64,000 nt of DNA from Pocillopora verrucosa (lineage: Eukaryota > Cnidaria > Anthozoa > Scleractinia > Pocilloporidae). The notes beneath the pieces are model-generated. The model was given only the letters and a program-made list of their open reading frames with translations, was not told where the DNA came from and searched no databases. The stretch lies in assembly GCF_036669915.1 (NCBI RefSeq), contig NC_089312.1, positions 26,646,056 to 26,710,055 on the forward strand, read 5' to 3'. How positions within the stretch are numbered: the stretch's first letter is position 1; the number at the start of each line of letters is the position of its first letter. Positions 4,901 through 60,500 of this stretch are shown piece after piece. Position numbers and translations under genes: made by a program.

Positions 4901-6344
4901 AATTTAGCATACTAAATATTTTCATTTGCCTCAGTCAGAATGCAGTCACTTCTGATTAGGTTGATCTCTTTGTATGACTCTTAGGGAGCAGTTATGATGT
5001 TTTGATTCACAGTGAAAGTGGCCACAGTGTGAGGCAGATTAATCAAAAGTAATAAATAGAGAAAAGCTTATGGGTGCACATAGATATGGAACTTTAGTGA
5101 GCGATCAATTTGTTATCTCATCAGTGAGCTCTGCAAAACAGTAAGATATTGAGTTGATTATGAGAAGAGAAATTCCATATCTACAAGCAACCATGTATTA
5201 CCTGTATTTTGTTTATTATATAAATACTATAGGCCTCTAATGATGAGAAAAGTCATCAAGGAACCTTTTTTGAGAATGATGAACACTTAGTCATTTGTTA
5301 ATCAACCTGACAAGGAAAGTGACATGTCAGTAGCTGATTGGCAATATCAAAAACACATAGGGGGTAAAAATTACCGTTATTTTACACAAGTGCAGTTATG
5401 ACTTTCTCAAGGCTTGGAATCGGCGTAAATTATAGCAGTTTATATCAATAAGATATTACAGTTCTTACAGGAGCTGCCAAAAACCACCTATAATACATAT
5501 TGAAGTGGCCAAAATAGCATTTTTATTATCTTCTAGGTTATATTGTCGCCTGTATCTCTACCCATTAAAAGTACTTCATTCTTGTGGCTGTGATGCTCGA
5601 CCAATCGTTCCTACTGCTCCTTTTTACTTCTTTTTTAATGCAATGCTGTGGGTGCTATTTTTAATGAACATTTGGTGGTTTACGTTCATTGTGTGGCTCT
5701 TAGTTCGTATAATTATTGGAAAGAGCACTGGTGTAGAAGATACGCGTGAGATCCCTGAGCACCCTGAGAAAGACAAACAGCTTGGTAATGGAGGGAATGT
5801 AGCAAATGGAGAAATACATGAACCAGCTGGTGATAAAGGTGAGGCTTGCTAGAACTTGTCATCCCTGTGAAGTGCATCAAAAATTTTGTTATAGAATAAT
5901 TGAGATAATATGTGCGCTCTCATTGGTTGATTGGTGTGTTTTGATGAGAGTATATAAACACTGTTGTGATGTCACAGTCCTTGGCGATTTTTAGCTTTTT
6001 GATTTTCACCTGTATGTAGCTGAAGAAGGCCACAGGCCAAAACATCAAATTTAATGTTGGAACAATTAAGAGTTTGTCTTCTTTCTTTCTTATCTACACA
6101 AACTATATTATACACATATATGTACTTCTTTTTCAGTAGAAATCTGAAAACACAGTTTTGAATAATAAAGTGTATCATGGTAAGCTCTGGTAATTTATGT
6201 TAGTATTCTTGTGTTTGTTCTGAAGCTGATCTCATGCATAATGGTAATGGTATCAAGAGAAGGGGAGAAAATGGTGAGCATGTTCTGCATGGTAATGAGC
6301 AATTCCGACACAGGCAACCACACACCAAACCAGCCAGTCCTTAG
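1924..6344 (+). CDS. CERS1: Ceramide synthase, CERS1-type (TLC/LAG1 domain), 5'-partial
   Basis: Ceramide synthases N-acylate sphingoid bases in the endoplasmic reticulum membrane. Five exons join in frame: 1924-2083, 4278-4458, 4669-4830, 5537-5838 and 6226-6344, giving 307 residues and a stop. The first begins PFFKWCQLSEKDQKKSPE, the linker before the TLC domain. The TLC domain has the catalytic histidine pair (LMLVHHVIANC) and the Lag1 motif (FLHDIADIFLEFSK), followed by the FKSRGGKYH segment and the PFYFFFNAMLWVLFLMNIWWF membrane stretch of the CERS1 subgroup. Splice sites are canonical and phases match. The C-terminus is uncertain: reading through the donor at 5839 gives an earlier stop at 5852 (ending KGEAC), while splicing to 6226 gives a basic tail ending PHTKPASP. 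The N-terminal exon or exons lie outside the window. A poly(A) signal sits at 6796-6801. Confidence 0.9.
2797..3260. repeat. 48-bp minisatellite in a ceramide synthase intron
   Basis: About nine tandem copies of a 48-bp unit (core CCCTCAGGTATACACTACCC then AAGAGGGTATAGAAGAGATT). Unit starts at 2846, 2894, 2942, 2990, 3038 and 3086 are exactly 48 bp apart; later copies are shortened or degraded. Because 48 is a multiple of three, a long open frame appears on the minus strand with a 16-residue repeat, which I treat as an artefact. It lies between the ceramide synthase exons at 2083 and 4278. Confidence 0.93.
3731..3940. repeat. Dispersed element with TTTAACTCC / GGAGTTAAA ends
   Basis: The segment opens with CTTTAACTCCCATGAGTGACC and closes with CTGGGAGTTAAATT, so its ends are inverted. 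It contains a short tandem run of ACAATATCAAT. The opening and the GTGAGAATAAGGAAA stretch resemble the roughly 200-bp elements at 43684, 44562 and 57615, so it probably belongs to a related non-autonomous family. Confidence 0.55.
5935..6080 (+). repeat. Dispersed-repeat fragment with a hammerhead-like core
   Basis: Lies in the last intron of the ceramide synthase gene. The piece at 6019-6046 (GCTGAAGAAGGCC, ACA loop, GGCCAAAACATC) forms a GGCC/GGCC stem flanked by CTGAAGA and AAAAC, the arrangement of a hammerhead ribozyme core with one substitution in the conserved CUGAUGA. Penelope-like elements carry such ribozymes. The assignment is tentative. Confidence 0.3.
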
Positions 6345-18274: not shown

Positions 18275-21200
18275 ATGGTAAGTGTTCATTTGACTTACTT
18301 TAATTATTGGTCGTGTGCTAATATGAACTTAGTAGTTGTGTCTCAGGGTCGAGTTTTGTTTGAAGCTAAAATAATAATAAAAACTATTCCGGTAATCAAG
18401 TATTATCAGCACTTTAGGGCAACACTGTTACATCAAGCTTTGTGCTCTTAACGTAAATCGACTATTTTTCACGATCACTTTGTCATATATAGATAGCATG
18501 AACTTAGCTGCTAAGAATCGCACAAACGGTTTCACATAGTCAATAACTTTAAATTTGCAAATACTCGACTTTAGCTAGAGACAATTTAGGTTTAAATAAA
18601 TTAAACATAGTTACGCTATCAAATAGTTTAAATTACGAGGATATCCAGCATATATTCTGTCACTCTCAAAAATGCCTATCCATTTCGGAAAATTTTTTAG
18701 GATTTATGTAATGTCTTCACAGGTATTTCTCATTTGTTTTTAATGCTGCTTCGGCTGGTTCGGAAGTGAATAGTAAAACTATTCATTTTCGAGCAGCTGA
18801 TGAGACAGAATTGCGCGTCCAGAGTTTAATTTCCGACCATTTTTTGGTATTTTTAGAGAAATAAACAAGTTTTTGGCATCTGTGTGCTTAATATACTGAA
18901 ACAATTATTCACCTCAATGACGGTGAAAGTGGTTGATATTTGCCTCGCCACTTTGCAGCTTGGTTAATGTCCTCCACTATTCACTTTAACTTTGGTGAAT
19001 AATCGATGATTAGTATATCCCTAAAACAGTATATGGCTTTAAGGCACACTCAGATTGGCTACTTAAACTCAAAATATCCTTTGCAATTCACCTACATGCA
19101 ATGCCTGCAGGATTTTTGCCTCAAAATATTATTGTAGTTATTGCATGAATAAATGGGTTAAAAACATCTTTTTATGCCATGTTATTGAACTGTTTTAGTA
19201 TATAATAAAAAAACTACTCACTTCAGTGTTGGTTGCTATTGACCTCACTGCTTAGCAGCTCAGCAAATATCCACTTTTATTGAAAACTAGAGCATTGGAT
19301 GATGCAATTCATAAGTTTTCATAGGCATAAACATTATATGCTAACTGAGCCATTATACCATATGTGCACAAGAAGACCACTTAAACCAGAAGTGTTTTCG
19401 TACATTGCAACATTCTGTTTGTTCTTACAAAATAAAGTCGGAAAGATTTATCTGTATTTTGAGGCATTTTTTTTAAAACTATTTAATCCACTTGCATTTG
19501 TTGGATATGAGATGATTATTGCCAACTCAGCCCTACAGGTCTCTTTTATTATCTATCATCTCATATCCAACACGTGTTTGTGGAATAATTGTTTACTAGC
19601 TACCTCCATGTTGGTGAATAGTTTTTGCCTACTGGCTACTTCATTAAATGGAATTCTTTGTCAAGCTAAGTGTATTGTTTCTATCAAGTTGAAGCAGGTT
19701 TGTTTTCATTTTAGGTGGAACAGTTTACAGAGAGTCAAATTGATGGTATGGTGTCGAATTTATTGAAAGAAATTATGGTGGTTATTTGTGGTACACAACT
19801 TTAGTCCAAGGTCTGGGACAGGGGGAGGAGATTCTCCTTGAAATACCTTGCTAGAGCTGGATTGTCTGGTCATCAAAATCCTGAACCTATTATTGACAAA
19901 AACACATCATTTTCCTCACAAGTTTTTCATAGCTGACCTCTAAAATCCATACCTAATTTCATACCTGAGTTTTGAAAATTGTACATGGTCTGTTAATCCA
20001 AGTATGCTTTAAATTAATAAAATTTAGTTGTAAATTTTAGTTGGTGATATTTTGGTGTTGTGCTTACTTGTATTTGTCTTGTAATTCCCTGAAAAATTAC
20101 CTTTATCTTAAGAGTTGAAGACCATGATGGGAAATTCTATATCAGTATTCAGATCAAAAGTGTTCAACAACCATTCTCTTTGGTATGGCACATATCTGTA
20201 TAGCTTACATAGCTTTGGTTATCCCCACCCCTAGTATCTTCTGGGCATTAGTAAGCTCAATATTTAAGCAAATTTAATATGTTGAACCTCAGAATTTTTA
20301 TAATAAACTGAATTAATTTTTCTCTTGCATCGTTCCATAGAATTTAAGGAGTGCTTCTCACTGTTTGATGGGGACAGTGATGGCATGATAACTGAACAGG
20401 AACTAGCACTGACCATGCGATCCTTGGGAGAGAATATCACACATGTAGAAATTGCTGCGCTTATGAAAAAGGCTGGTAAGATAAAGACTGCAACCATTGT
20501 TAACATGATATTGGGGCAAGTTTAAGATAAGCAAAGACTTTTCCATCCCCTAACAAAGATTAAATTTTCAATAATTAATATATGTAAACTTGATTGGTTG
20601 TTTATAAATCTGCTTGGAGTATTACTTTATACACACAGGCATCTTTACTTGGTCTACAAAACATACAAATAGAGAACTGTTTATTATTTAATTATGCTTA
20701 TCTTTCATGCCATGAGAAGTTACAATGCTGGCAGTGCCACTTTTTTTTTTAAAGAGTTACTGATTTAACACTTGTAGAAACATACTTACCTCTGTCTGTC
20801 ATTAAAGCACACCAAAGAATGATTACCATTTGATTTAATTGTGCTAATCAGTGCTATTGGTGTATGCATCGATGGAATAGAACAAAGGTTACAAAGAATT
20901 TTGATGCAATTCAATATTATTTCTTGTTATTAATGAGTTTGCTCAGCTAGTTAATGTAGTGGCATTATGATGCTTGGAAACCCATTTTTTTCATCAAATT
21001 AATTCTGTTAACAGTTGAAAGTTCATAATTTCTTTCCAGGAAAATACAGCAGTTTCTTTTGAAATTAACTCCAACTACTCCATGAAAGTTTTTTTATTGA
21101 CTGATAAAGATTGCTTTTTTAATATTCATTGAAGCTATAAGTTGTATAATATTTTTTGTTTACATATTACATGTATGTAACCACATCATAATGATGTAAA

Positions 21201-22803
21201 TTTTTACTAATAATTATAATTATCATTGATATTAGTATCTCTATTGATTTATTATGTTAGCATTATCATTGTTTCTGATCATTATTATGTACTTGTATGT
21301 CTCTGTTGATATCTGAGCCTGAAAATACTCTTTCCTATTTACAAAATATTAGGTAAGCAGAAAGTGCGGTTCCCAGAATTCTTGAAGATGATGGCAGAAC
21401 AGCATAAAAAGAACTTCAACTCAGAGCGTGAAATTTTGGCTGCTTTTACAGCTTTAGACAGGAACAAAACTGGTGTTGTGAGTCGCAAGCAACTACAGCA
21501 TCTAATGACAGGCACAGGGGATAAACTAACAGCTGCAGAATGTAAGAGATTTGATAAGTGTCTGGCAAAAATGATTCATAATGGCAGTTACTTACAATGC
21601 AACAGGTTTAGCTTCCCACTAGGAGTATTGTGCTTGTAAATGTTTTTCAATCAATTTTATATTACTTAAGGGTTAGAGATCAAGGACAGAACTTTAAGAG
21701 GAACTGTCACAAGCTGTGTCTGAGATGAAGGGAGAACTCAAACATTGTTTTTAATGTAGCTGAACACGCTGTCTTCTCGTAAGGCTCCCACATTTTAGTG
21801 GTTACCTTGTTATGCCAATGCTCCCCTACAAATTGCTTCTAAGTTGCTCTGCTGTGAATGTTACTTCTTTCTAGTATAAGGTACCTTTTCCATTTCGTTA
21901 TTTCATTTACTTGCTATCATTTCAGTGATGTTACTTGTTTTTATTTTCAATTGGTGTTTCTCTTCTTCTAATGACAGAGATACTTGTTGTGTTAGTGCCT
22001 GTAAATCATGGAAGAATGCCCTGTTTCTGTCTCTCTATTACAATTCCCCCTTGGTTATAGTTTACCCTATTGTTTCAATACTGGTATTCTTGTAAAGTTT
22101 GAGGAGTCAGTAATCCTACCCTAGATTATGAGTGTTCATTTGTCCTACTACCCCTATTTAAGCAGGGTGCTTTTGTAGGCTAGTACTCATATTTTTTCTA
22201 ATGCACCAACCTCAACTAGTTCCCCTAATCCAGCAAAGTAACTATTGTTCCTGGCCAGTGATCTTCCTTTCATGAGGTTTGTTTTGTTCAAAAATCCCTA
22301 TTTCAAAATGATATTCTTTATACCTATACCCATTGTCCCTGTTATCAACTGGCCATGGCAATAGTAGCCCTCTTGTTACAATGATTTATTCCTTTCAATG
22401 TTCCAGTGTGTGTTTCAAAATTTTTATTTCTAAGTTTAAGTTTACAAATGTGTTTTTTTTCTTTCAGTTCAACAGATGTTAAAGGATTTGAACTTGGAAG
22501 GTGGCAGCTCTATTAATTATTCAGGTCAGAAATGCATATGAATTTGTAGCAGTATCTTCTTTTATTTGCAGAATCTACATTTTAGTATGTGATCATGGAT
22601 TTCTTTCTGTATTCCTGCAAATGCTCAAAAAGTTGTTGCAGTTATGCACTTTGTTTCCATTTTCTTATCAAAAAAAGAAAAACTTACAGCAGCCTTTTTT
22701 TGCTGGCCAGGACATAAGAGTTTTAACTTTTTGGACACTTTTCTTTTAGCATTGATATCCCTTAAATTTTCTTTCAGATCTTGTGCGAGCTGTAACCCAC
22801 TGA
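18275..22803 (+). CDS. Calmodulin-like EF-hand protein, resembling CALML4
   Basis: Six exons give 146 residues: 18275-18277 (ATG only, then GTAAGT), 19715-19745, 20341-20475, 21353-21541, 22468-22524 and 22778-22803. The ATG-only first exon and the 31-bp second exon ([10 protein letters not shown]) match the classical calmodulin gene structure. EF-hand 1 has a canonical loop, [12 protein letters not shown]. The loop of EF-hand 2 is three residues short ([16 protein letters not shown]) and has lost its acidic ligands. EF-hand 3 ([12 protein letters not shown]) has Q in place of the final E, and EF-hand 4 is degenerate. Probably only site 1 binds calcium well. Such degeneration is typical of calmodulin-like 4 (a myosin light-chain-like partner), but that role is inferred. 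The first exon is chosen by ATG|GT position and is the weakest part. A likely poly(A) signal is at 23642-23647. Confidence 0.8.
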
Positions 22804-23812
22804 GGGAACGGTGATGGTGCAGAAAAAACTGTTACATATTTGTCCTTTACCATCCTTGCAAACTAAACTTTATGCACATAACTTTTTATTGAAATAACCT
22901 TCTTCCTGATTTGAACCATCAGTATAGTATTACTGCCGTTGGTATGCTATAGAAAGAACCTTTTGTAAAGAGATTTGTTTGAGAATACCAAGAAATCTTG
23001 TAAAGCAACCATGAGAAAGAAGCAATCTGGGGTGTTAATGTCAATTTTGTGGCCATCACATCTGAAGATAAACATTGCAAAAATTATTTATAGGTGTCAT
23101 CCAAGTACTATTTATAGAGTTTTATTGCTTTCCTCTCACTGCAGTCTTCTCAGACAGATACAAAAGGTTAAGATTACAGAGTTTGGACTGCTTTTAGCCC
23201 AGCATTCATCAGGCAATGAGATTGCATAATTTGTCAACCTCAATACCTGAAGGGATTAGTGCTGTGTGTCTTTTAAAAATTTTTACAACTAACTGCTAAT
23301 TAAATGTTGTTAGAAATGGTTGTGAAATGATGTAAGGAGCTATGTTTTGCCACAAATTGGCCTCCATTAAAGTTAACAGTGTAATTTTTAGTATGTTAAT
23401 TGGGTTTATTGGCAGGAAACAGGGAATGCAGGTGTAAGAATTACTGATTCAGAAGTTGAAACATTTTTTTTTTTTTATGAAAGTAAAAGAAGAATTCTAG
23501 TCTCACTCAATGATGTATTTACAAAAATTGCATTTATTGGAGTGACATATGATTAAGATTGGTTAATGGTGACACAATAAGATCTGGTATTTATGAACCA
23601 CTTGGAATTATTAAGGGGGATTTAGAACTGTCGCTGAATTAAATAAATGCTTTGAAATTCTGGTGGAAACTTTTTTTTCTTTTTTCTTTTTTTTCCCCTT
23701 TTTGCGCGGGAAATGTTTAAACTGTTTTGCAATTTTAAAGCTTTAAACCACCAGGAACACAAGTAATAAGAGAACTAGAAACTAAAATGATAAGCCAGAA
23801 GAGGTTGAAACG

Positions 23813-23818
23813 TTTATT
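23813..23818 (-). terminator. Poly(A) signal of the first SERINC gene
   Basis: TTTATT on the plus strand reads AATAAA on the minus strand, about 100 bp beyond the stop codon. The plus-strand signal of the converging calmodulin-like gene lies only about 170 bp away. Confidence 0.55.
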
Positions 23819-23919
23819 TACCAAGTGAACTTGGATACATTAATGGGATGGATTTTGTGTTTGTACCATTATTCAGTTTCAAAACAGATCAGCAGCTTAC
23901 TGATGACAATTGAAGGTTG

Positions 23920-26900
23920 TTATACATTTAATCCTTGAAGTTCAGCTACTTTATGTTGTAATTTAGCTATTTTTTCTTGCAATTTTAAAACTTTCCCTTG
24001 GAGTCTCAACACTTCCTTGTCAGCCTCAGTCAAGGGAGTCGTTGTTGTATCTGTTGGTGGCGTATCTTTCATTTTTTGTTCTTTTCCCCTATCATCATTA
24101 CTGGCTGTTCTATTTTCGTCCAAATCGTTCGATTTAGAACTTTTATGCAGAGTTTCTTTTGCTTTTGCAGCATTTTGATCAGCTCGTATTTCGTTATTTG
24201 TTGCCATTTGAGAATGTTTCAAAGCATTCTGATTCGTTGGGAGTGTGCTGACCGCATCTGACTTTTCTTCACTTTCTTTTTCTTCACCATCGACGTAATT
24301 CTGAAACATTGGACGAAGCACAGGGGCGAGCAATGCCCATATATAGAGGCAAAGGCATGCGCTACTCGAACCCATTTTGATCCAAACCGCAGGCCATGAT
24401 CTTTGAAGCTGCCTAAGGTTTGTAGCCGGTGACGGGCTGTACCAATTTGTCAACGTCATCATAATGTGCAATGACGCCAAGGACATTGCAAAATGGAACA
24501 AGGAATAGTTATAAGCTACATGATCGTCCTCCTTGACTACAGACTCTACATCGTCGCTTTTTTTCGTTGCAAGGTTGTTTGCCCTAGTTTCAAGATCTTT
24601 GTAGTGAATACGCCATCTGTCTGGACAGAAAGAAGATTGTGACATAAAAACGCATGCTGCGGTAGCGGAGCTCTTAAACGCTTAGTCCGTATCGGAGCGT
24701 CAATTCCTAAGAAAACCAGATGATGACCCATCTAGCTGAGAGAATTACTGGTCAGGTAATGGGCGTGCATACGTCCATGACTGAAATTCTATTTAACATG
24801 AACGTAAATATTGATAATTCGGAGATCCTCTTCAGGCTCAGCGAAATCTTTATACTGTTAGTAATTTTGAAAATGTCTCAATGGGTGAACACCTCACTTT
24901 TGACTAACCAGAGGGACAGAGTTGTGATACGAAAATGTTAAAAGCGGACGAAAACTTTTGAAAAAATGTTCGTCCATCGCATGTTACCCCCCAAACATAA
25001 TTATTTCTTCAGGTTTCCTTGTCGAATTACTGGTACCCACTTGTACTCATGCGCGGAGAGAGAGGCACTTTGGGAGGAAAGTATCTTGCCCTAGAGAACA
25101 CAGCGCAATGCCCCAGCCAGGTCTCGAAGCCAGACCTCTCGACCGGAGTCCAGCGTGGTTATCGATGGGTCTCGGCGTTTCCCACCACATTAAATGATGA
25201 AATATGAAATTGTTTTCCAAGATCGACCGACCTTGACGGACTGTATTCTAAAAATTAAGATAGCGAACAACCTTAGTTGTTGAACTTACTCAAGTTTGAT
25301 GCACTCATGGCTGTGCTAAGACTGGCATAAACGAGCATGACAAAGACAAATAGGCTGCTGAAAATTCCCTGCAAACTCAAGCCAGTCGTCTGGTCATATC
25401 CAGATATGACGTAACCAGGAGGATTGCACAGATCGTCCGGCTCGTGCGATAAGGCAGACCACGTGAGATACGTGGTGTAAGCTATCACGACGGAGGCTTG
25501 AAACAAACCTGAAAAGAACTTTAATGATCTTAACTGATCTTGAGTTTTATGATGAATGGAAAAAATGAGATCTAAGAATTGTTAAGGAAGTTCAGATGTA
25601 ATTGCTTTGTTTTGTATTGCGCTCTCGTGGAGAAAAGAGGAACTCAGACAACATCTGCAAAGAAATATCAATTAAAAAGAATGATAACTCTCTGAGGTTA
25701 TTTTTCCTACGCCCGTCATCTCCTACACAATCTCTGCCGGTATCATAATAAAAAAAAAGATACTCGACCACTTAGCTAAGAGACGCTGTGAGCATTGGCG
25801 GTTATATCCAATCGATTATCTTGCGCATGTAAAAAGCCGAACACTTTTGTCTCTCACTGAAAACATTTGCCTTTTACTTAGTTTAACCGTAAGTTGAGAA
25901 GGTGAGACAGGAACATCTAACTTGAGTCAAGAGGGCGGTAGAGAACTAGTGACTTGGTATGCCATATTGTTTCAGCTCCGTCACTCATTTTCCTTTCAAA
26001 GCCAATCGGGTGGAGAGCACATGTTTCTTCAAAATTCGCCCTCCCCATATTCACAGGGACGAGGAATTCACGGCACAATGAATTGAGCCAAAGAGCTCCT
26101 AACTTCGTTTGACATAGGTATCTGCATGTATTCAGGGCTCTGACGTCACTAACCAGTGCCTGACTGCGCCTCCTGAACCTTGGGAAGAACGCTGATCACT
26201 GTCGCTGCTACGCACTGACACAAGCTGAACGAGACGAAGAATAAATTGGTTTTACACTCAGCATCCCGCACAAAGAACTTGTAAAATAAAATCACAGCAA
26301 CCATGGATAAGATAAACAGCATTCCGGTACAAGAAAGGAAGCACAAATACCTGAAGAAAAGACGGAGAGCTGTTATTTCATCCGGAAAGCTGGAACCACC
26401 ATCACATAAATTTTCAACCCTCATCTAACTGTCTATCCTGTAAGTACCCGCTTACCAGCATCTTGAACGACAAGGTGTCGAGGCCTCCTCCATCTTCTCG
26501 ACCCAGGTCTCACTCCACGAGTGAGACATATCAACTAGCACCACAAGTTGAATTAGGATAAAAAGGAATCCACCGACCAGGCCGAAATACATCCATACAC
26601 GATTAAATGACAGTGACTGTGGTATTAACAGCGAGGATGTGATTAAAGCTGTAAAAGAAAATTAAATTAACATAAAACATACTATCATATAAATCGTCCC
26701 AAGATATCTTGAAGCAAAGAAATTTTTACTGGCCAGGTATAAAACGTTTCAGTTTATTATTGGAGATCCTTCAAAACTAAATTGTTTTCCCCTTTTTTTT
26801 TTCCTTTTTGATTAAGGCTGTATTTCTTTGTTGATTCATAGACTAAGACGCGCGAGTTATCATTTGGCGCGAAAAATTTTCGCGCTAAATTGGTAAAATA

Positions 26901-27441
26901 TCAGCATCAAGAAAAGTCAGTTGAGAAAATAAGATTTATAAGGAAAATAAAAAGTAAGAAAAAGATCTGAGGAAATAAAACCTAGAAGCTGGTTAGCGAT
27001 AAAAGTTGTAAGTGATGCTTAATAAAAACTAACAGCTATTACTGGCAATCATTACTCACCAATCAACAGCAGAAACTTGATGTACCAAAAACCATTGTGA
27101 ATCCGAGCACGGATCTCTTCCACGCTTTTCACATTAAGCGTCATCATGGAAAAACACAGATAAAACAAAGCTGTTCCAAAACACACGCGATAAACTGCCG
27201 TGTAACCCACTAGATTGTCACAACTTTTTGAGTCCACCATTTCGTTGCAGAAATGCGGAATAGCATTCAGTTTATCTCGCATTCGTGGAGCAGAAAGTAC
27301 AAAACATAACACTGTGACGAGTAGAAGAAACAAAGTGTAGTTCACGCGAGTCATTGTCTCTCTTCTATGTCCCCCGCATGCACAGCACAAGAAGCATACG
27401 CTCTGATCACCATTCGGTTCATCCTTAGAATTGTCTTTCAT
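23920..27441 (-). CDS. Serine incorporator (SERINC) with C-terminal coiled-coil tail, multi-exon copy
   Basis: SERINCs are ten-helix membrane proteins named for serine incorporation into lipids and known as lipid scramblases. Five exons join in frame: 27060-27441, 26456-26648, 26154-26350, 25290-25508 and 23920-24620, giving 563 residues. Family landmarks are the N-terminal CFLCCACGG cysteine cluster, CDNLVGYTAVYRVCFG, RARIHNGFWYIKF, LVDMSHSWSETWVEKMEE, VISVLPKVQEAQSGTG, YTTYLTWSALSHEPDDLCNP and FHFAMSLASLHIMMTLTNWY. Canonical SERINCs end soon after the last helix (here IWALLAPVL). This one continues for about 135 polar residues and ends in a heptad-repeat coiled coil (EVLRLQGKVLKLQEKIAKLQ onward, 23923-24015). 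The start is the first in-frame ATG; an upstream exon cannot be excluded. The next gene upstream is an intronless paralogue. Confidence 0.93.
25010..25165 (-). mobile_element. tRNA-derived SINE in a SERINC intron
   Basis: On the minus strand it reads GGACTCCGGTCGAGAGGTCT, GGCTTCGAGACCTGG (a B-box-like GGTTCGA motif), then GGCAAGATACTTTC and GTACAAGTGGGTACC. I recognise this arrangement from SINEs dispersed in several invertebrate genomes. It is inserted in the last intron of the multi-exon SERINC gene. Confidence 0.6.
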
Positions 27442-29211
27442 GTTATTTACTGAGCTGAAGTCTTTTTCATCGTACCACACTTAAGGAAAAGATATGTTTA
27501 TGTTCATGTCTGGTGGCACAATTATGTCGGTATAACGTCACGCAGTAAAAGTGTTTTTAGCGGGAAAAATTGGTTTGAAGGATTAGACACAAATCTGCAT
27601 GGTAAGTTTAAAAATTGATCATACGAACTTGTTGTTTGTATTTTCATACGCAGATTTAGTCGGAATTCGTCGTAAAGAGATCATGAACTTTTCTGTGAAA
27701 AGAAGTCGCGGTTTCGATACTTAATTGAAAGAGTTCAAAGATCCTTTTATGACTTAAAGGGAAGTACTGTGAGCCAAGAATCTGGCTTAAATCGCCAAAG
27801 AGTTCTCAGACCAGATCACCCAGCGTTTGAATCATCGCGTGGACTCAGACGAATAATAAACATCTTCCTTTACTCGAAAACTGTGTGCCAAATTTTCACA
27901 TTCAAGAAACATTTTTTATTACTGATTAATCAGTATACAGGACTGATCTCATGCACATAAGGACTCTTGGCCTAGCCCGGCCAACCAGCTCTTTCACTTG
28001 GAAAAGGATGCGATTGCAAATTCGCAGCTGCTGGCTTGGGTTTTCAATCCTCACGTATGATCGACTTGGAATTTTCTTTCTCCTTCAATAGTGAAAAATG
28101 AAAACGTATCTTTCTTTTCGATGGAGAAGTATTTTTTTCGCAGTGCACAAGACACATTTAATTAAAGCAAGGCACGTTCAAGTCATCAACTGAAAATGAA
28201 TTGGCGGGTACCTGCAATGTGTCAGAGTTAAAGTGACAAAATTCTGCTAAACTCTCATTTCAAAAGAAGATATATCAACTAGCCTTTTGATACCTGTCTT
28301 TTGAAGTTATTGCATCCACTTGCTTCCAAAGAATACTGTAGAATAATAGAGATTTTGATAGCTTTTCACTAAATAGAATAACAAATTATTAAAAAATTGA
28401 ATTGCCCTTTGGCCTTTATTTCTTTTTTAATCCCGTTTGATTAACAGCTTTACCTGCGGTTTTTCCATATATCCTTTCCTTATTAATAACAGTACCAACG
28501 TTCTTTTTTTACCTCATGCGCTGCACGTTAGGTCATCGATTACAACCCGAGAGGAGAAGGAAATAGGAACAAGTTCGTAATCGCATATCTTTATTGATAA
28601 ATCAATTCTATTCAGGAATTAAGTAAGAGTTTGCCAGGGGAAGGCCTGGTCTGAAACAAGTTTATTTGATGGCTCTATAGCTGTTTCATTTGCAATCAAA
28701 TGGAAACACAAGAGAGGACAATTGCAAAGAGTAAATAGCATGAACGACAAAGTAGCCATATGGTTAGATATCTTTTTTTTAATGTTCTCTCTTTTTCATC
28801 TTTTGGTTTCACTGAAATCTCAGTGATGTTATTTTATTTGTAAGTATGAACACAGGTTTGATACAAATTCTTAAAAAAAGATCTCGCTTATAGTACAAAA
28901 TAAAGTAAAAAGTGAGGGAATGCAATGAAGGGGAAATTTAGAGAACTGTGTTGACAGTCACATGATGGTATATATAAAAAATTACTAGTATACTTTGCTT
29001 AAAATAGCTATACATCAAAGGCTGCTTTTAATTCTCACTTTTAGTGGGTGCTTAAATGAAAAAAGAAAACTTCTTCTTGGTTGAACCAGGGCTTCTGATC
29101 TTTAATGTTTTCTGAGTTATCTTGAAAATTGAAAATGTTTTCTTTACTACTCAGCATAGAGTTCTGATTTGAATCTATTTGTGTCGGGTATGACGAACAG
29201 GCACCTAAAAG
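27442..29211. other. Intergenic region between the two SERINC genes
   Basis: No coding sequence recognised. The region contains the promoter of the multi-exon SERINC and the 3'UTR of the intronless one, with a minus-strand AATAAA (TTTATT at 28833-28838) about 375 bp beyond its stop codon. I saw no poly(A) tract or direct repeats that would mark a recent retrocopy. Confidence 0.5.
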
Positions 29212-31281
29212 CTATCCTCTTTTCGTAACATTTTCTGTTCTTGGAATAGTAACTTCACCTGTTTCCTGTATGGATAATATTTTATGCTGGATTTTCACAA
29301 TCTTCGCCTGAAATCTAAGAATTCTTTCTTGTAATCTGAGAATTTCCTTGGAAACTTCAGGTTCTTTGACGCTGTTGCTGAAAACACTTTCTTGGGTAAT
29401 CTTTTCGAATGGATGGTCGATTTGTATTCGCACTGGCATAGAAGGATTGGGAAGCCTTATTTGTTCTTCCGAAGTTCTATCAGAGGAGCACGACCTTTTC
29501 CGATCATACATCGACGCATCGGGCAAAAGTGAACTCTCGGCCGACGAAGTTGGTGTGAGTTTGGATTTATCTTTTTGTTTTTCGACTGTCCTTTCACTAG
29601 GACTGCTGTCACGGTTTTTATCACCCGAACAGAGAGGGTCATTATCACTTTGGTGTTCCGTTTTGCCTTTAGCTTTACTTGCTTCGCCCACACCGACGTC
29701 TGTTTCATTACCTTGATTGCTTTTTATCGCTTCTTGAAGCCTCCTTTTCCTAGCTTGCCGGCTTTGCTCAAGCTCTCGTTTGTCTCTATTCCTATCAACC
29801 ACGATTTCAGATGTTTTTAATCTTTCCTTTGTCTTCATGAAATCGTCTTTAAGCCGTGCAGCGCTAGCTCTTCTTGCGCTCGGCTGTCTGGCAGGTTCAA
29901 AGTCCAACCCCAGATAATGGCCCCACGTCCTTCGTATTAAGGGCGCTACTAGAGTCCATATATACACCAGACAACAAATATAACTCGATGCCATTTGCAC
30001 CCAGACTGCTGCCCAATTCTTTATCATTTTCTTAAAATCAACGTTTTCATCTGGACTGTGCCAGTTCGTCATTACCATCATGACATGTAAAGATGCTAGG
30101 AAAAGAACAAAGTGAAAGAAAGAATAACTATAAGCGACATCTTCGCTTTCAAGTTCCTCGGCTCCTTTACCATCCTCATCAGGTATGTTCTCTTGTTTTC
30201 GTTGCTTCGTGTTTATTTCGACACTTTTTCGCAAGTATTCGGGATTGTCAGATAAAGAGAGTCCCAGTTTCCCAAGCTGTGAAGTGCTGGCGCGGACAGT
30301 GCACGCAAACGCTAATAAGGCAAACATCAAAAGCGCGCCAAAGATCGCTTGCCCATTCACACCAGATACCTTGTCATATTCCAGTATAACCGCGCCAAGT
30401 GGATTGCATTTTGAGTCTGGTTGAGATGAAAGGGTATTCCATGTAAGATACATGGTGTATATTGTAATGACTGAAGACTGCAGGAGACCAGCTCCTGTTG
30501 TTTCTTCCTGAATTCGCGGAAGCACAGAAATTATTGTAGCCAGCGCACAATGTCCTACGTTAAAACTGATATAAAAAGTATTCGCTTTACACTGTGATAT
30601 ATCGTCCGGGTTGGTGAAGAAAAGATAAAACATCACAGCCGCCGTGACAGAAATCGAATACACTAAAGCGGTTGAAAAGGCTAGTGAGAAGTACCAGCAT
30701 TTCGTGTCAAGGGTGTCCATTTTCTCTGCCCAAGATACACTCCACGAATGACCAAAGTCGATGACGAGAATAATTTGAATGAGAATGAACATAAATCCAC
30801 CTGTAAGTCCAATATACATCCATATCTTGCTGATAAGCTCCGAACTCGGTAGATAAAATACGAATCCTATTATCAAAACCAACAGGGAGAGTTTGATGTA
30901 CCAGAAACCATTGTGGATCCTAGCGCGGAATTTTTTCTTAGAGTGCACGTTGTAAGTGAGGAATGAGAATAATAGAAAAAACATAGACATGGCGATTGAA
31001 ACTCTGTAAACTGCTCCGTAGCCCACGAAATTGTCGCAAGTTCGTTTAGACGCGAGTCTCGTGCAGAGGAAAGGAATTTTGTCCAGATATAGTCGCATAT
31101 TCGGGGAGAGCATTACGAGGCAAAGAACTGTACCAAGGAGAAGAAACACGGTGAAGTATAGCCTTGATCTAATACCACCGACTTTCTTTTTACAAAATAA
31201 ACTGCACGCTGCTGAGCCTGCGCAACAAGCGACTTCACTCGCTACTTCCGCTACGCCCAGAGTCTGTAGAGCTGCTCCCAT
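29212..31281 (-). CDS. Serine incorporator (SERINC) with long coiled-coil tail, intronless copy
   Basis: One uninterrupted frame of 689 residues from ATG 31279-31281. It starts MGAALQTLGVAEVASEVACC, close to the family's usual N-terminus, and carries CDNFVGYGAVYRVSIAM, RARIHNGFWYIKLSLL, VIDFGHSWSVSWAEKMD, VLPRIQEETTGAGLLQSSVI, YTMYLTWNTLSSQPDSKCNP and YSYSFFHFVLFLASLHVMM. After the last helix (VYIWTLVAPLIRR) about 225 polar residues follow, rich in K, E, S and R, then a heptad coiled coil (EILRLQERILRFQAKIVKIQ onward, 29266-29346). Usual SERINC length is about 450-470. Lack of introns beside a five-exon paralogue suggests an old retrocopy or intron loss; the frame is intact, so the gene looks functional. 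Confidence 0.95.
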   Translation of the reverse strand: MGAALQTLGVAEVASEVACCAGSAACSLFCKKKVGGIRSRLYFTVFLLLGTVLCLVMLSPNMRLYLDKIPFLCTRLASKRTCDNFVGYGAVYRVSIAMSMFFLLFSFLTYNVHSKKKFRARIHNGFWYIKLSLLVLIIGFVFYLPSSELISKIWMYIGLTGGFMFILIQIILVIDFGHSWSVSWAEKMDTLDTKCWYFSLAFSTALVYSISVTAAVMFYLFFTNPDDISQCKANTFYISFNVGHCALATIISVLPRIQEETTGAGLLQSSVITIYTMYLTWNTLSSQPDSKCNPLGAVILEYDKVSGVNGQAIFGALLMFALLAFACTVRASTSQLGKLGLSLSDNPEYLRKSVEINTKQRKQENIPDEDGKGAEELESEDVAYSYSFFHFVLFLASLHVMMVMTNWHSPDENVDFKKMIKNWAAVWVQMASSYICCLVYIWTLVAPLIRRTWGHYLGLDFEPARQPSARRASAARLKDDFMKTKERLKTSEIVVDRNRDKRELEQSRQARKRRLQEAIKSNQGNETDVGVGEASKAKGKTEHQSDNDPLCSGDKNRDSSPSERTVEKQKDKSKLTPTSSAESSLLPDASMYDRKRSCSSDRTSEEQIRLPNPSMPVRIQIDHPFEKITQESVFSNSVKEPEVSKEILRLQERILRFQAKIVKIQHKILSIQETGEVTIPRTENVTKRG

Positions 31282-46269: not shown

Positions 46270-48866
46270 ATGGCTTCGTCGCTTCACCCCGTAAAGAAAA
46301 GAAACCAAAATCATACTCCTTCTCTGCATCAGAAATCAAGAATACCAGTCAGAATGACTCGCCTGAGCAGAGAGAATAAGAGAAGATCTTTGTCAGAGAA
46401 CGAGTCTGATAACAAAGCGCAGCTAAAACAGGTAAATTTGCATAACATCTATCACTTGAGGCCAGATTGCGAGACAAATGTTTTATAAACAAATGTCGTC
46501 AGTAAAGTATTTCATAATGACAACTGTCTCTCCTGGAGGACCTGAGACTTAACGTCGTGTTTGGCTGTTGTTTGCCATTTTTATGTGATTCCGAAATCGG
46601 TTTTCACGTGTCTTAGAAGAAAAGCGACTAAGTCGTGAACGGAATCACGTATCCTAATTGCGGTTATCACTCATTTATATCATGACTTCATTTCTGCCAG
46701 TTTTAACTATCATAGTTACAAAAGGATGACTAACTATCATCCACAAATTCAACAGCTGCAACAAAAACAACGCCTCTTTTGCTTAAATAAACAGGTCTGG
46801 AAAGATGAGGAAGAACCACGCGTCACGACTGAGGAACTTGAAACGTACCGAAAGATGACAAAAATTTTGCAGGCTGACCTGGAAGAGAGCCAAGTTGAGA
46901 TAAAGCGAATGCAGCTTAAGGAAGAATACAAAGAAAGAGAGCTGGCAAATTTAAAACGTGATTTCAAGAGAAAGGAGCGAAAATGGGAAGAAGGAAATGC
47001 ATTCGTGGAAAAGGTTATGGTGGAAAGAAGAGAGCTATTGGATGATGTTGATTACTTGGAGGAAAGCTTAAAGAACAGTCAAGAAAGGAATGAAGATCTG
47101 ATGTTTGAGGTTGATGAGCTGAAGATAACGATACAGGAAATGAACAGGGAGGAAGGGATGGAACACAGTCGCGATGGACGCGGACATCTACGCGAGGAAG
47201 TAGAGCTACTAAATGGATCCCAGGAGTTTAATGAACAGCGAATAGCTCTGTTAGAGAGTCAAGTGGAAGCGTTTAAAGCCGAAAGAGAAGAGTTCTTAGA
47301 TGATGTTGATTACTTGGAGGAATGTTTGAAAAACAGTCAAGAAAGAAATGAAGATCTGGTGTTTGAGGTTGATGAGCTGAAGATATCGATACAGGAAATG
47401 AAAAGGGAGTACATGATGGAACACGGTCGCGGTGGATGCGGGCATCTACGCGAGGAAGTAGAGTTACTAAATGGATCCCTAGAGTTGAACGAACAGCGAA
47501 TGGTTCTGTTAGATTACCAAGTGGACGTGCTGAAAGCAGAAAGAGAAGAGTTCTTTGATGATGTTGATTATCTGGAGGAATGTTTGAAAAACAGTAAAGA
47601 AAGAAATGAAGATCTCATGTTTGAGGTTGATGAGCTGAAGATAACGATACAGGAAATGAACAGGGAATATATGATGGAACATAGTCGCGGTGGATGTGGA
47701 AGTTCACGCGAGGAAGTAGAGTTACCTAATGGATCCCTGGTGTTGAATGAAGAGCAAGCAGTTTTGTTAGAGAACCAGTACCATGAGATAAAATGTGACA
47801 CCTCAAAGACTTCAATGGATCTCAAAGATGAAATTGCGAAGTTACAAAAGGAAAAATCCAAACTATCCTCGGCACTATCAAAGGCATCAGACGAAGAAAA
47901 CCAGTTGTATGAGTTAAAATTTGAAAACTCAAGGATCACAAGAACATTTGAAGATCATATAACAAGGTTAAGAAGAGAGAACTGCACTTTGACTGCCATA
48001 CTATTAATGGCTTGCGAAAAGGATGACCAGTTGACTGAACTGAAAGAAAAAGGAGAACTGAAGAAGCAAAAAGAGTGTGGTTCTTATCCAGAGAAAGAGC
48101 TCTACGTGAGAATTGGACATCAAGAGAATCAGATGGTAACCAGGAGAGAAAAAGCTGCTTTACATCAGATAATGTTTTTGGATGATGAAAGTGATGTGGC
48201 AGCCCGTAGTCAAGGAGACACTATGAATATATGGTCAGTTTTATTCCTTTTTGCCAGTATATTATAATATAGTTTTAGGTAAAGCTACAACTGTTTCAGA
48301 ATCTACCTTTTACTTCAATTTTTATCGCTGTTAACTCAAAAAGTTGACCGCATGAAGAAGTCTGAATGTTGAAAGGGGGTTGGTGGTAACAAGAAACTCG
48401 ACAAAGATTTTCGTTGGCGGATAGAGACGCTTTTGGCCCAACAATTTTTGTCTCGAGGATATTCCTTGGCGGTTCTACCACCAAGTTAAGTAGAAACGAG
48501 CAAACTTGAAAAATTTGGTGAATGTATAAACTTTCAAAATATGGGTCTGGGATCCTGAGGCACCCTAACACTAACGCCATAATAACGGGATAATTATAAC
48601 GCCTTACTTTTGAGGTATTTCTAAACTTTCGCCAACCTTTTCCCTGTCATCTATCAATGGATAATTTAGTGAAGTTAAATTTAATGAAAGTGTTTCTTTC
48701 CTCTCATTACAGGGTGAATGACTCCAGGATGGTGGAACGTTTTGAAACAAGGAGAGATCAACACTTCGACCGCGTCAGTATTACCGCTAAAGTTGACCTC
48801 ACCATGCGGAAACTCTCAGCACACGGATCACCTAATATCGTTTCGATCCTTCTCTGCAGTGTTTAA
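46270..48866 (+). CDS. Unrecognised coiled-coil protein with triplicated 86-residue segment
   Basis: Three exons (46270-46431, 46795-48233 and 48713-48866) give 584 residues. All junctions keep the frame: CAG|GTCTGG at phase 0, and ATATG|GTCAGT joined to G|GTGAATG, completing a tryptophan codon. The N-terminus is basic (HPVKKRNQNH, MTRLSRENKRRS). Most of exon 2 is charged coiled coil (EELETYRKMTKILQADLEES). Residues 131-388 are three 86-residue copies with the core DDVDYLEECLKNSQERNEDL, DELKITIQEM and GGCGHLREEVELLNGS. The C-terminus returns to non-coil sequence (MVERFETRRDQHFDRVSITA). I do not recognise the family; a cytoskeletal or centrosomal role would be a guess from coiled-coil character. 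Poly(A) signal at 49015-49020. Confidence 0.82.
47023..47796 (+). repeat. Three tandem 258-bp copies inside the coiled-coil gene
   Basis: Copies start at 47023, 47281 and 47539, exactly 258 bp (86 codons) apart. Sequence is close to identical between copies, including silent positions, for example GATGATGTTGATTACTTGGA then GGAATG. This is an in-frame tandem duplication within one exon. Confidence 0.95.
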
Positions 48867-52518: not shown

Positions 52519-55500
52519 TTACATCACTGAGCAACACTTGCATTGTGGCGATGAAAGCCCACCTTTCTTCGCTTTTGTACTTTTCTTTTCTTCTCCTGCC
52601 GTCTCAGGCGTTAACAGCATTAGCACAGGTAATGTTTCATCAGCACCTTCTTCCTTCTCCATCGAATCGGCAACTTGAGGTTGTGCCTCTCCCAGAGAAT
52701 CCGGAATAAGCTTCTCTTCATAGGGAATATCTGTATAAGGTTCCATCTCAGATTCGTCTCCGCCCTGTGTTCTGTTTGGCAGCGAAGACTCCTTAACTTT
52801 CCGAGGACTTTCCATCACGTTAAACTGCTCCTGAGACTCAAGAATTCCACGATCCTCCGATGCAGCCAAAGGTGCAGAACCTTCGCTTTCTTTCTCGGGT
52901 AATATTTCGGGAGCTGAGAGCCTCTTCCGAAGCACGTAACGGATTAATTCCACCTCACCATCCATGTTCCCCTCATGAAACTGCTTGGTATAAGAAGTTG
53001 AGGAGAGCATTTCTTCTGTTGTGACCGTGTCAGGAAGAGAATTAGTTGAACTGCTGGCTGCCTCGAAAGTCTTTTTCTCGTAAACCGTTTTGGTTACAAT
53101 GGTTTCACTGTCGTTTGCAGATTGCTCATCAGTACTTTCTATTGACGTTACAACCGATGTTGTGGTCGTGATGAATTCGGTCGGCTTAGTGTCTTGCCAA
53201 TTTTTGTTTACTGCTTGCTTGCTGTGTGCCACGTCAAATTCCTTTTGTTTTTGTTCTTCCTCTCCCTCTAGCACTAAAAGATCAGGATAAAACTCAACTT
53301 CATTCTTCTGTACAACAGGGGCAGCTATTTCTTTTACGGAGTCCTCGCCTTCCTTCCTTTTCTCTACTTGAGGTATGTCTAACACAACAACCGACGGAGG
53401 CTCGTCCTTAGAAAAGCATTCTGTTTCTTGGGTGTCACCTTCCTGCTCGTCATAAAAAGCATGAGAAACGGGTTTCTTTTGAACTATAACTGTAACAACT
53501 TCGTCGACAATGTCTTGCTTTTCTTGTGTATCAGGATACGTTTCTTGGAATTGTTCTCCAAAGATTTCAGGATCAAGGGGCGACCCCATGTTGAGTGAAG
53601 CTCCCCTCTTCTCAATCTTGAAGACTGCCTCTTCCTCGACGGGTTCTTTGTCGCTAGTTGGTGCTAATTCCACTTCTTTACTGTATGGTTGTCCTGAAGA
53701 TGGCTTTTCGATTATCGATTCAATATTACTGAGCAAGGACTCCACCGTGGCTTTGTTGTCTTCCTCTGCCACGTCTACGAACTCATCACCAGGAGTTTCA
53801 TGATCGAGCAGCACCTTTGGCTGAGTTGAAGCAGTTTTCCTCTCTACCACTACAAGCTGCGCTTCTGTGACTGGTTCTTCTTGTTCTGTTGGCTTTTCTT
53901 TTGTCAGAATTTGTAGGGCGTCTTCCACTGGTTTCTTTCCTTCGTCGTCCCTACCGTCGAACACCGCTTCCAGATCTTTAATGTCCATTTCTTCGTCTTT
54001 TTTAGGTTCCCCTGGTAGTTCGGGTGAAATAACATCACCATTTTTTTGCTTTACCGGTTCTTCAGCCTCTTCTAAAATAGGATGGAACGAGAGCGACCGA
54101 GGCTCCGACTCTACTACAGTGGTGGATGCTTCTTCTACTGGTTCCTGAATGTCGTTGCTTTCTCCTTCGCCATACAAGTGCTCCATGTGAAGTGACACAG
54201 GCCTCTTTTCCACAACCTCGAGAGAAGCCTCTTCTATTGTTTGCCTAACTTTATCGTTTTCCCCGTGATCAAAAGTGGGTTCCAAGTTAAGGGATGCAGG
54301 CTGCTTCTGTACAACAAGGGGTAATTCCTCGAAAATTACACCTCCTGTTTCATAAGCTTTTGTCGTTGGTTGAGTCTCTTCTCTTTGGTCTTTTTCTCGC
54401 TTGATTGTGACTAGTTCATCCCCGATGTCTTCAGACTTGTCTTCATTGCTCTTGATCTCAACCTCAACCTTCTCTTCTAACATGGGATGATAACAGAACA
54501 ATCGCGGCTCTGATTCTACTGCAACAGAGGAGGCTTCTTCTATTGGTTCTGGGGCCTCATTGCCTTCGCCGTCGTCAAACAAATGCTCCATGTGAAGTGA
54601 GACGGGCCTTTTTTCCACAACGTCGGGAGAAGCCTCCTCTACAGTTTTCCTGACCTCATCGTTTTCCTCGAGTACAAATGCAGCTTCCATGTGAAGTGAT
54701 GCTGGTCGTTTTTCTACAACAAGGGGTAATTCCTCTGTTATCTCGTCCTTTGTCTTCAACTTTGTCATTTCTGCTGTCTCTTTTACGGCGCCTTTTTCGT
54801 ATTTGATATCAATCAATTCATTACCGTCGTTCACGGTCTGGTCATCATCTTTTTCTTCAACCCTCTCTTCGAGCATCGAGTGATAAAAGAACAGTCGCGG
54901 CTCTGATTCCACTGCAAAAGTCGAAGCTTCTTCAATTGGTTCTGGATCATCGGTGCTTTCTCCTTCATCAAACAAGTGCTCCATATGAAGTGACACGGGC
55001 CTTTTTTCTACAACTTCGGGGGAGGCTTCCTCTATTGTTTGCTTCACTTCATGGTTTTCCTCGAGCTTAAAGGCAGCTTCCATGCAGGGAGGTACAGGTG
55101 GTTTTTCTATAACAATGTGTGGTTCCTCTGATATTTCGTTCCCTGTATCTATTGATTTTATCACTTCCGCGGTTTCTTTTCCTTTGCCATTTTCGAACTT
55201 AATTGCGACTAGTTCATTCCCAATGTCTACAGAATTATCATCGTCATCCTCATTCCCAACTTGATCTTCAACCTTCTCTTCTAACATCGCATGATAACAC
55301 AAAAATCGTGGCTCTGATTCCACTGCGACAGTCGAAGCTTCTTTAATTGGTTCTCGGACCTCAGTGCTTTCATATTCATCAAATAAGTGCTCCATGTGAA
55401 GTGACGAGGGCCTCTTTTCTACAACCTCGGGAGAAGCCTCCTCCACTGTTTGCCTGACCTCATCGTTTTCCTCGAACTCAAATGCAGCTTCCATGTGAAG

Positions 55501-57534: not shown

Positions 57535-60500
57535 ATTCTTTGGCTAGCTTTTTCGCTATTTTATTCTGTCAGTGCTATGAAAAAATGTAACAGAAGAGTG
57601 ATTAGTTGGTGAATTTAACCCTTCACATCCAAACATCAGTATGTATATTCTCCATACTGTTCTCCATAAATTTCCTAAGGTGCTGACAAGGAGATTTTGC
57701 TTAACAATCAAGAGCTCCTGTACTTGTTGATCATTTCCATTAGTCTCATGACCTTAATGTTTGATTTAGGGGTGACACGATGAGGAAAAATTTGACGCTA
57801 GTCGCTCTTAGTGGTTGAAATGTTAGCTCCCTTGTTGCCCGTGTCATAGCGGATTTGGACCCACCCGGTCCCTTTCTGAACCTCGCCCCCTCTCCCGCGT
57901 ACTATGCAAGTGTAGGTTATAGTTAGGTAAAATCAAATGATCATCTTGTGAGATTCCACATGCAAAATATACTTGAGAATAGATACAAACCTTTTCCCTA
58001 ATTTACTAGTGGTTTTACAAATGGATCACACTTGTAGACGTAAGTATGTCAGTAGAAGACACCAGCGGACAACAAAGTGCATTTCATAATTTACAACAGA
58101 AGTAAAATCATTATTGTCAGTATCCTGCCGCCGTATTTTACCCGAATGTTGGCATAACATGATTCAGTGAAATCTGAGTGAGGAATGGATGCACATGGTT
58201 TGAGAAGGGCTTGTTTTGGACCTAGGGAGTCCAAATGTGCAATGGGAGGGGGTCCAGATCCCATGCAAAAAGCCCATTTAACTTAACGTCGGTTTGCTTT
58301 GGCAGATCACAGAAAATTTCGGAACAACAAGTTTATGTCGGGGCGCACAACATCATCAGGCTAACTCTTACTGTTGACTTCCGGAAAAGATGGCACAAAA
58401 GTAAACTCAGCACGCGCGCGTGCTCTGTGAGTTTCCACACGCGTGCCTCGCGCAAAATATTAACATGGCATTTTGAAAAAGCTTAACTAATCTCATTGAA
58501 AAAGAGAGATTGATCCTCTCTTGCACTCCGACTAAATACAATCTATAAGGAATTTTTCATTCATGGAAATGTGTAATGTAAGACGGTGATAAGCATATAT
58601 TTAGCAAGTTTGACCAAGATCGCCAACTTAATACACTCACAGGTCAAAGGTTTCGATTTGAGTTTGTTTACCCTTGCCAAAATCATTTACAAATGAAAAT
58701 GTGACAAAATTACTGTGAGACAATAACAGAAGAACCACAGGAAGTCACATATTTTGGATGCAATTATATGTCAAGGTAGCCGAGGAAAGGAGACACCGTA
58801 GCTAATCAGATTTTAATTGCAGCGAACTGTCCAACGCAGAAAAGGAAACTGACCCTCCCGAAGCGAAGAACTTTAATCTCACTCTAAAGGCATGGATATT
58901 TGAAGGTCTCACACGAGAGCAAAACAGACATGCAACAATAGGCATCACAAAAAGGTTAATTCAAACCAATTAACAAAATAGAAATTAAATAAAAACAAAC
59001 AAAAGAACAGAGCTGTCTTCTGTCTCTGCTGAGGCGCGAAAATAAAACGATGCGAAATTTAACGGTTGCATGTAATCAACATGGATTGTATATTGCGATG
59101 AAACAGCTTATTGAAGATTTCAATATATACTATATCGACCTAAGTGTGTCAAGGCAAAAAGTTATTTCGTTTTATGAATGTAGGGAAGTTCTGCAATGTG
59201 ACAGACGTTTTAAAATGCCTGCAGGGGTCGAACGCTTGTTGAGAAAGGTCAGTGGATATCACGAATTTTTGGCCGAATGTATTTTTACAAAAAAATTACT
59301 CGGTATTGAGCAATTATTTACCATAGTTTACTTTCCATATATGGATTTACAGACATAATAACTATGAACAATGGCAGCTACTGATCTGATAGTGACATGT
59401 TGATAGGGATGCGTTTTAATTTTATGTAAATGGTTATTCCAGATGGCATCACCTGTAATAAAATTTTAGTCATTGAAAGAAGATGAACTAAAGCGCTCAA
59501 ATCTGTTGGAAAGGTTTAACGAAAACTTAAAGGGAAAAATAAATTTCAATAAAATTCCGCAGCGTCCTAGATAAGTAAAGACTTCGGAAAAAAATACAAT
59601 GTAGCCCTTGAAATATGGTTTATACATTGTTGCTTCAATTCATTGTCTAGGTCAGGTTCTGTCAACGAAAATGCGCGATAAAAGTAGAGCTTCCTGATTT
59701 CAAACGCAGAAAGGCGACTAATTTCATCATGTTTACGATTTCTTGACCGTTCATCGCTCTTGAACAATTGGGAATTGAAGAATACAATGTGTTTCTGACA
59801 ACATTTTTCACGCGCGCTCAAAACATTTGTGTAAATGTTGGTTTTAAACAGTAGGAGCTCATTGTGACAATCGCATCGGAAGCTGATGTCTGATCCTAAC
59901 TTGTCAGTTCCCATGTTAACAATCGTAATAAAAAAACTCTCCGTGGCACTCACCTTTGGAGATGAAAGCTTTGACACTTCAATCCTGGTAGAAGTAAACA
60001 AACCAGTATTCGCAGTGCGAGATCACGCTTAGAAAAATCGCCTTCGATCTGAAATATGATGATTCACTTAGATGGCCAAATAAGATAATGAAGATTGTCG
60101 ATCGAATTTCAGGTTTCGAAACTTTAAGGTCCTTGCAAATCGAAATTTCATTTCTTTATTCCGATATCGTTCGCAGCAGGGTGATCATGTGTGGTTTCCG
60201 CCGAAACGTAATTCCCCGCATATTTTTAAAATACCATTTCTATATTTGTGGTCTACATTTCATGTCTATTTCATGACACGCAGCTCAGACAAGATTATCA
60301 CGCGCGCGGAGCGGATAAGTATAACGTGCGCCTGCGCGCTTCCGCGAGAACAAGTCACAGCTATCGGACACACTGGAATCAAAGCCAGTTAATAGTGCAA
60401 CTGCCAAGAATGTTAGATCTTAATCACAATTAATGTTAGGCTTAATCACAACCGAAATACATCTCTGAAGAACAAACAAACCGAAAAAAAGAGGTACCAA

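Follow-up and report, generated by a model that had tools for sequence, protein, structure and literature searches.

Among described proteins, the closest to those considered here belong to the SERINC/TMS1 family of membrane proteins, and purified human SERINCs flip lipids, according to PMC10359404. Judging by the structures, it seems undecided whether a SERINC functions as a monomer or as an oligomer, with a hexamer for Drosophila TMS1d and a monomer for human SERINC3 (PMC10359404). Outside the family, the voltage-gated proton channel Hv1 provides a precedent for joining transport modules, each with its own pathway, through a C-terminal coiled coil between monomers (PMC13124150). The window examined here is a stretch of 64,000 nucleotides from the coral Pocillopora verrucosa (contig NC_089312.1, positions 26,646,056 to 26,710,055), in which two neighbouring SERINC genes, A and B, lie head to tail on the minus strand and both extend into a long C-terminal tail ending in a predicted four-heptad coiled coil. 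Judged from sequence, this is a known family with a domain arrangement that is new to it: A and B share the full-length membrane domain of the SERINC/TMS1 family (41-42% and 34% identity to human SERINC3 and Drosophila TMS1d, respectively, over the aligned rows) and differ from it by the coil-ended tail that replaces the usual short end. No paper on SERINCs that end in a coil, or on coral SERINCs, was found among the matches listed, a search that covered titles and abstract openings, with subscription papers and general protein databases outside it.

Gene B (31281-29215, minus strand) is intronless, its uninterrupted frame running from an ATG at 31281 to a stop codon at 29214-29212 and encoding 689 amino acids. 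It matches the Pfam Serinc profile (PF03348) over its full length, covering profile positions 1-430 of 434 at 424 bits (cut-off 24), and the human SERINC3 chain (7ru6) at 325 bits. Gene A (27441-23923, minus strand) is spliced and encodes 563 amino acids between an ATG at 27441 and a stop codon at 23922-23920; spliced alignment and GT-AG sites delimit five exons (27441-27060, 26648-26456, 26350-26154, 25508-25290 and 24620-23923), each matching the Serinc profile above the cut-off. All four introns (27059-26649, 26455-26351, 26153-25509 and 25289-24621) are GT-AG. The last acceptor, at 24621, was picked by eye for its polypyrimidine-CAG, the automatic spliced alignment having given 24657, 36 bases earlier, and the choice leaves the tail of A unaffected; an extra first exon may exist upstream of the model. 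The third intron (26153-25509) coincides in alignment column and in phase with one in the ordinary SERINC on contig C2, and the other three have no match among the introns listed for the SERINCs of contigs C2, C4 and C5. By the Serinc profile, A and B are thus classed as SERINC (TMS1-type) membrane proteins, of the lipid-scramblase type. The two-bundle, crossmember SERINC fold is attributed to gene B by homology, its AlphaFold model, built on a 5-row alignment, having a mean predicted local distance difference test score (pLDDT) of 46.3; for gene A, modelled from the last exon alone, the mean is 60.5, and outside the helices both models are mostly of low confidence.

Counted from the [LV]AP motif at the end of the last membrane helix, the tail of A comprises 133 amino acids (23923..24321, minus strand), encoded by the exon that also carries the last two membrane helices, and that of B 242 (29215..29940, minus strand). 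The original prediction had put these lengths at about 135 and 225, which holds for A and is too short for B; the range it gave, 23923..29346, contains the whole of gene A (to 27441) and only the coil of gene B, which runs to 31281. In B a charged helix follows directly on the membrane domain (29719..29874, minus strand; residues 470-521), with AlphaFold block pLDDT of 54-60 over residues 471-500 and 78 over 501-520. Matches of the tails to known families are slight: in Pfam the tail of B matches nothing and that of A six families, all below their cut-offs (E 0.11 at best), with one weak PDB match for A (E 4.3) and three nucleoplasmin chains for B (best E 0.055).

Two ways in which the tails might be illusory were considered and rejected on the sequence. 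Firstly, they are not read as artefact or read-through, both being in frame from the last helix; at local composition the odds of a stop-free run are about 1e-4 for the 133 codons of A and 7e-8 for the 242 of B, and, counted from the first base of each stop codon, the nearest AATAAA or ATTAAA downstream is 104 bases on in A and 108 in B. Secondly, the tails might be spliced out in favour of a canonical end. Donor-like sites of the form GT[AG]AG[TAG] are absent from both tails (weaker donors were not looked for), and a search for a canonical SERINC end (DRDF, NRDF or P[DN]R[DE]) beyond A, at 19000-23922, and in the interval from B to A, at 27480-29214, returned two NRDF strings, neither after a SERINC last helix.

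The terminal coil of A (23932..24015, minus strand) consists of the four heptads EVLRLQG, KVLKLQE, KIAKLQH and KVAELQG, and that of B (29263..29346, minus strand) of EILRLQE, RILRFQA, KIVKIQH and KILSIQE. The two align without gaps and are identical at 14 of 28 positions. Across both coils the a and d residues are hydrophobic in 16 of 16 cases, glutamine occupies position e in all eight heptads, and position g holds glutamate in the first heptad and lysine or arginine in the other three, which bears out the common heptad pattern with a fixed glutamine that had been proposed, at four heptads in each. AlphaFold gives a local helix for both (block pLDDT 85-93 for A, from the last exon alone; 64, 80 and 75 for B), and in 2000 shuffles of each whole tail the observed 3.5-residue hydrophobic moment was reached 17 times for A and 25 times for B. 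Continuous heptads, hydrophobic a and d positions and predicted helix are therefore present in both tails, as expected of a coiled coil. Searched against the PDB, a two-row profile of the coils found as its best match the peptide chain 6wl1 (E 1.4e-5 in total, 0.023 and 0.11 for the stretches alone), followed by five further matches at E 0.17-0.28. Within the coil of A, Tandem Repeats Finder reports two copies, 80% alike, of a 21-base unit (23944-23985), so this coil may have been lengthened by duplication of units the size of a heptad.

A segment that is basic, amphipathic and predicted helical could instead be a helix that lies on the inner membrane leaflet or binds calmodulin and forms no coil at all. 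We consider this quite improbable, as the narrow a/d stripe, the strict 3-4 spacing over four heptads, glutamine at e and glutamate, lysine or arginine at g are typical of coils. In an IQ motif, glutamine is followed four residues on by arginine or lysine, a spacing that, by eye, the segment does not match.

The relationship between the two genes bears on how the coil is to be understood. A and B form a clade with support of 94/93 in a ten-row tree, in which the bootstrap had not settled, and of 99/97 in a nine-row tree that includes human SERINC3 and Drosophila TMS1d and from which three divergent rows were dropped. They are sister genes, yet their identity is down to 42-44%, which makes it probable that the coil was there before an ancient duplication and has been retained since; its homology is argued by the sister relationship, by its place at the same end of both proteins and by tail searches that recover only the other gene. 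Nonsynonymous divergence (dN) between the two genes is lowest in the coil (0.40; 50% identity), intermediate in the membrane domain (0.52; 44%) and highest in the linker (0.82; 33%, over 92 alignable columns). The claim that the linkers differ while the coil is kept is upheld by these values, and the coil, evolving at much the same slow pace as the membrane domain, seems to be under constraint. Selection on the coil, which had also been suggested, is borne out only as far as slower change than in the linker: synonymous divergence (dS) is saturated (infinite) in all three regions, so that the proposed comparison of dN/dS yields the difference in dN and no ratio, and the excess of identity in the coil over the linker (14/28 against 30/92) has a Fisher p of 0.12, that over the membrane domain a p of 0.56, the linker and membrane counts being derived from rounded percentages. 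Selection on the coil is accordingly not proven.

The saturated dS and the p of 0.12, together with a sample of two sequences from one genome, leave room for the view that the tails are largely neutral extensions, retained by chance after the duplication, with the coil a leftover without a role. Such an outcome seems improbable to us. The human SERINC3 protein is 39.1% identical to SERINC5 and 51.9% to SERINC2 (PMC10359404), so A and B are about as diverged as these paralogues, and over that distance an unconstrained helix of 28 residues is unlikely to have retained every heptad and all eight glutamines with no insertion or deletion, when the stretch ahead of it differs by about 96 residues in length.

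Searches of the genome (353 Mb in 52 contigs) place the coil among a family of some size. The Serinc profile gives at least 32 exon-level matches, which we assign to about nine loci: A, B, one on C1 at 1.67 Mb, and one each on C2, C4, C5, C7, C8 and C14. The coil tail is present in two of these roughly nine loci, the neighbours A and B. Searching the genome with either tail recovers, at E up to 10, only itself and the other gene (the latter at E 3.2e-4 and 3.9e-4), although the search scores only those candidates that pass a permissive initial screen (3 and 2 of them), frame by frame, and weaker relatives may escape it; a coil module spread across the genome, considered as a candidate, is unsupported, the matches being A and B alone. 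Six ordinary SERINC ends extend past the helix motif by 31 residues on C1, 9 on C2, 14 on C4, 10 on C5, 7 on C8 and 9 in the second domain of C7, and none carries the coil tail, in agreement with the original prediction that ordinary SERINCs lack it. The accompanying statement that a canonical SERINC stops directly behind its last helix fits these six ends and fits the Drosophila TMS1d chain less well: past the Serinc match, solved chains run on for 26 residues in human SERINC3 (7ru6, 494) and 54 in TMS1d (6sp2, 513), lengths that may include a tag. The end motif PDRDF occurs in three ordinary paralogues (C2, C4 and C5) and is absent from A and B.

What the coil does can be approached through its topology and its pairing surfaces. 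Two more membrane helices follow the SERINC loop ICL4, bringing the C-terminus back to the ICL4 side, and the tail of B is arginine-rich over its first thirty residues. As ICL4 is intracellular (PMC10359404), both points suggest that the tails are cytosolic. The core of A has V, V, I and V at a and leucine throughout at d; that of B has isoleucine throughout at a and L, F, I and I at d. Under the rules derived from GCN4 cores, valine or isoleucine at a with leucine at d favours parallel dimers, and by sequence the coil of A looks dimeric and that of B could be either a dimer or a trimer. A parallel arrangement is further favoured by the flanks, where a g-e' contact would set lysine against glutamine if parallel and lysine against lysine if antiparallel. 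Identity between A and B is 4/4 at e, 3/4 at g, 2/4 at b and at c, and 1/4 at each of a, d and f: the flanks are better kept than the core, in which substitutions are conservative. The flanks are thus identical at 7 of 8 positions against 7 of 20 elsewhere (Fisher p = 0.033, a post hoc comparison), as would be expected if both proteins used one common pairing code, and so similar an e/g code would allow A and B to mix.

Our favoured interpretation, which we hold to be about evenly poised between right and wrong, is that in the cytosol these segments associate as a parallel coiled coil and link SERINC modules into homo-oligomers or A-B hetero-oligomers. The common ancestor of A and B would have gained a flexible C-terminal tether with a four-heptad coil at its end; the coil would then pair each protein with itself or with the other, and cluster small groups of lipid-transport modules, much as the Hv1 coil ties two subunits, with a possible effect on lipid scrambling. 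Besides the pairing code, the clade of A and B and the tail searches, two points are in its favour: SERINC oligomers are possible even in the absence of such a tail, TMS1d being a hexamer (PMC10359404), and a double SERINC, covalently fused, exists in this very genome. Several observations weigh against it. Position e holds no glutamate in either coil, so the g-e' salt bridges usual in homodimers are missing, and phenylalanine and isoleucine at d in the coil of B fit no single oligomeric state. The likeness of the two coils beyond heptad composition is weak: shuffles that preserve the heptads average 11.0 identities, and 14 or more are reached in 4.5% of them (p 0.045 for identity, 0.049 for score), so that the likeness is mostly shared heptad composition. 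Finally, the human SERINC3 structure is monomeric, having come from monomer peak fractions (PMC10359404).

The same pattern of conservation suits the main rival, in which the coil docks another cytosolic protein, such as a trafficking adaptor, a motor adaptor or a scaffold with an acidic coil, and recruits it to SERINC membranes, a common partner explaining the common e/g face. That the best-kept positions are the flanks (7/8) and not the conservatively substituted core (2/8) is what such docking would predict; the basic g face of lysine and arginine would suit an acidic partner coil, long flexible linkers would suit recruitment at a distance, and the faint PDB profile matches include coils of EEA1 and TRAK2 (E 0.27-0.28, not significant). 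At the sensitivity of the search, no further gene in the genome has a similar coil, which tells against docking, though a partner need not be similar. We regard it as possible and clearly less probable than oligomerisation.

If oligomerisation through the coil is accepted, the likeness to Hv1 would lie in transport modules joined by a C-terminal coil, a role proposed for SERINC from sequence; the Hv1 membrane domain is unrelated, and its coil is not known to be preceded by a comparably long linker. Another way of tying two SERINC modules together exists in the same organism: on contig C7 (L009:1429-4218), one frame of 930 codons fuses two SERINC domains head to tail (581 bits in total; 29-37% identical to A and B), a covalent tandem with no coil. 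On contig C14 (L015:2723-4795) lies a divergent intronless SERINC, too diverged for the helix motif, that continues in frame into an extra C-terminal domain unrelated to the coil (NGSNAC...DSHPYG). This domain has no Pfam match over the cut-off and no significant PDB match; counting the query, the genome yields 14 matches to it, and so it belongs to a repeated family, here joined to a SERINC. That it is papain-like is only a guess. A broader and distinctly speculative reading would see in A and B a distinct coral clade of coil-tailed SERINCs, the coil pairing A with B as a defined hetero-oligomer and serving, beside the C7 fusion and the added domain of C14, as one of several routes to clustering, or to regulation from the cytosolic side, in a SERINC family that has expanded in cnidarians.

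If A or B is indeed a natural SERINC that brings its own oligomerisation coil, it would permit a direct test of the role of oligomers in lipid flipping. It would also mean that at least one cnidarian has diversified this lipid-transport and antiviral family rather than keeping a single copy; the statement that invertebrates have a single SERINC copy (PMC8316019) does not fit this genome, with its roughly nine loci. One of these, on contig C5, has its N- and C-terminal halves (L013 and L014) separated by about 50 kb and on opposite strands; inversion within a single gene, two distinct genes or an assembly error could each account for this. In the viral_contigs and genome_contigs collections of prokaryotes, viruses and plasmids, pattern matches to gene B were confirmed as relatives in 0 of 4 and 0 of 28 cases.

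Elsewhere in the window, the end of a TLC-domain gene of the ceramide synthase-like family lies about 18 kb from the SERINC pair (5436-5852, plus strand), a proximity that is probably coincidence. A frame of 1674 codons (52519-57543, minus strand) is repetitive inside, with units (EKRPVSLHMEHLF) of about 400 bases, has no Pfam match over the cut-off and ends in CKCCSVM, which we take to resemble a lipid-anchor end. A second long frame, of 542 codons (46639-48267, plus strand), is charged, coiled-coil-like by eye and holds about three copies of a 258-base repeat. On a larger scale, and in keeping with a coral-like anthozoan, all 74 exon matches to the GFP family found in the genome fall on the window's contig (C1), in two dense clusters at 0.67-0.88 and 28.36-28.79 Mb.

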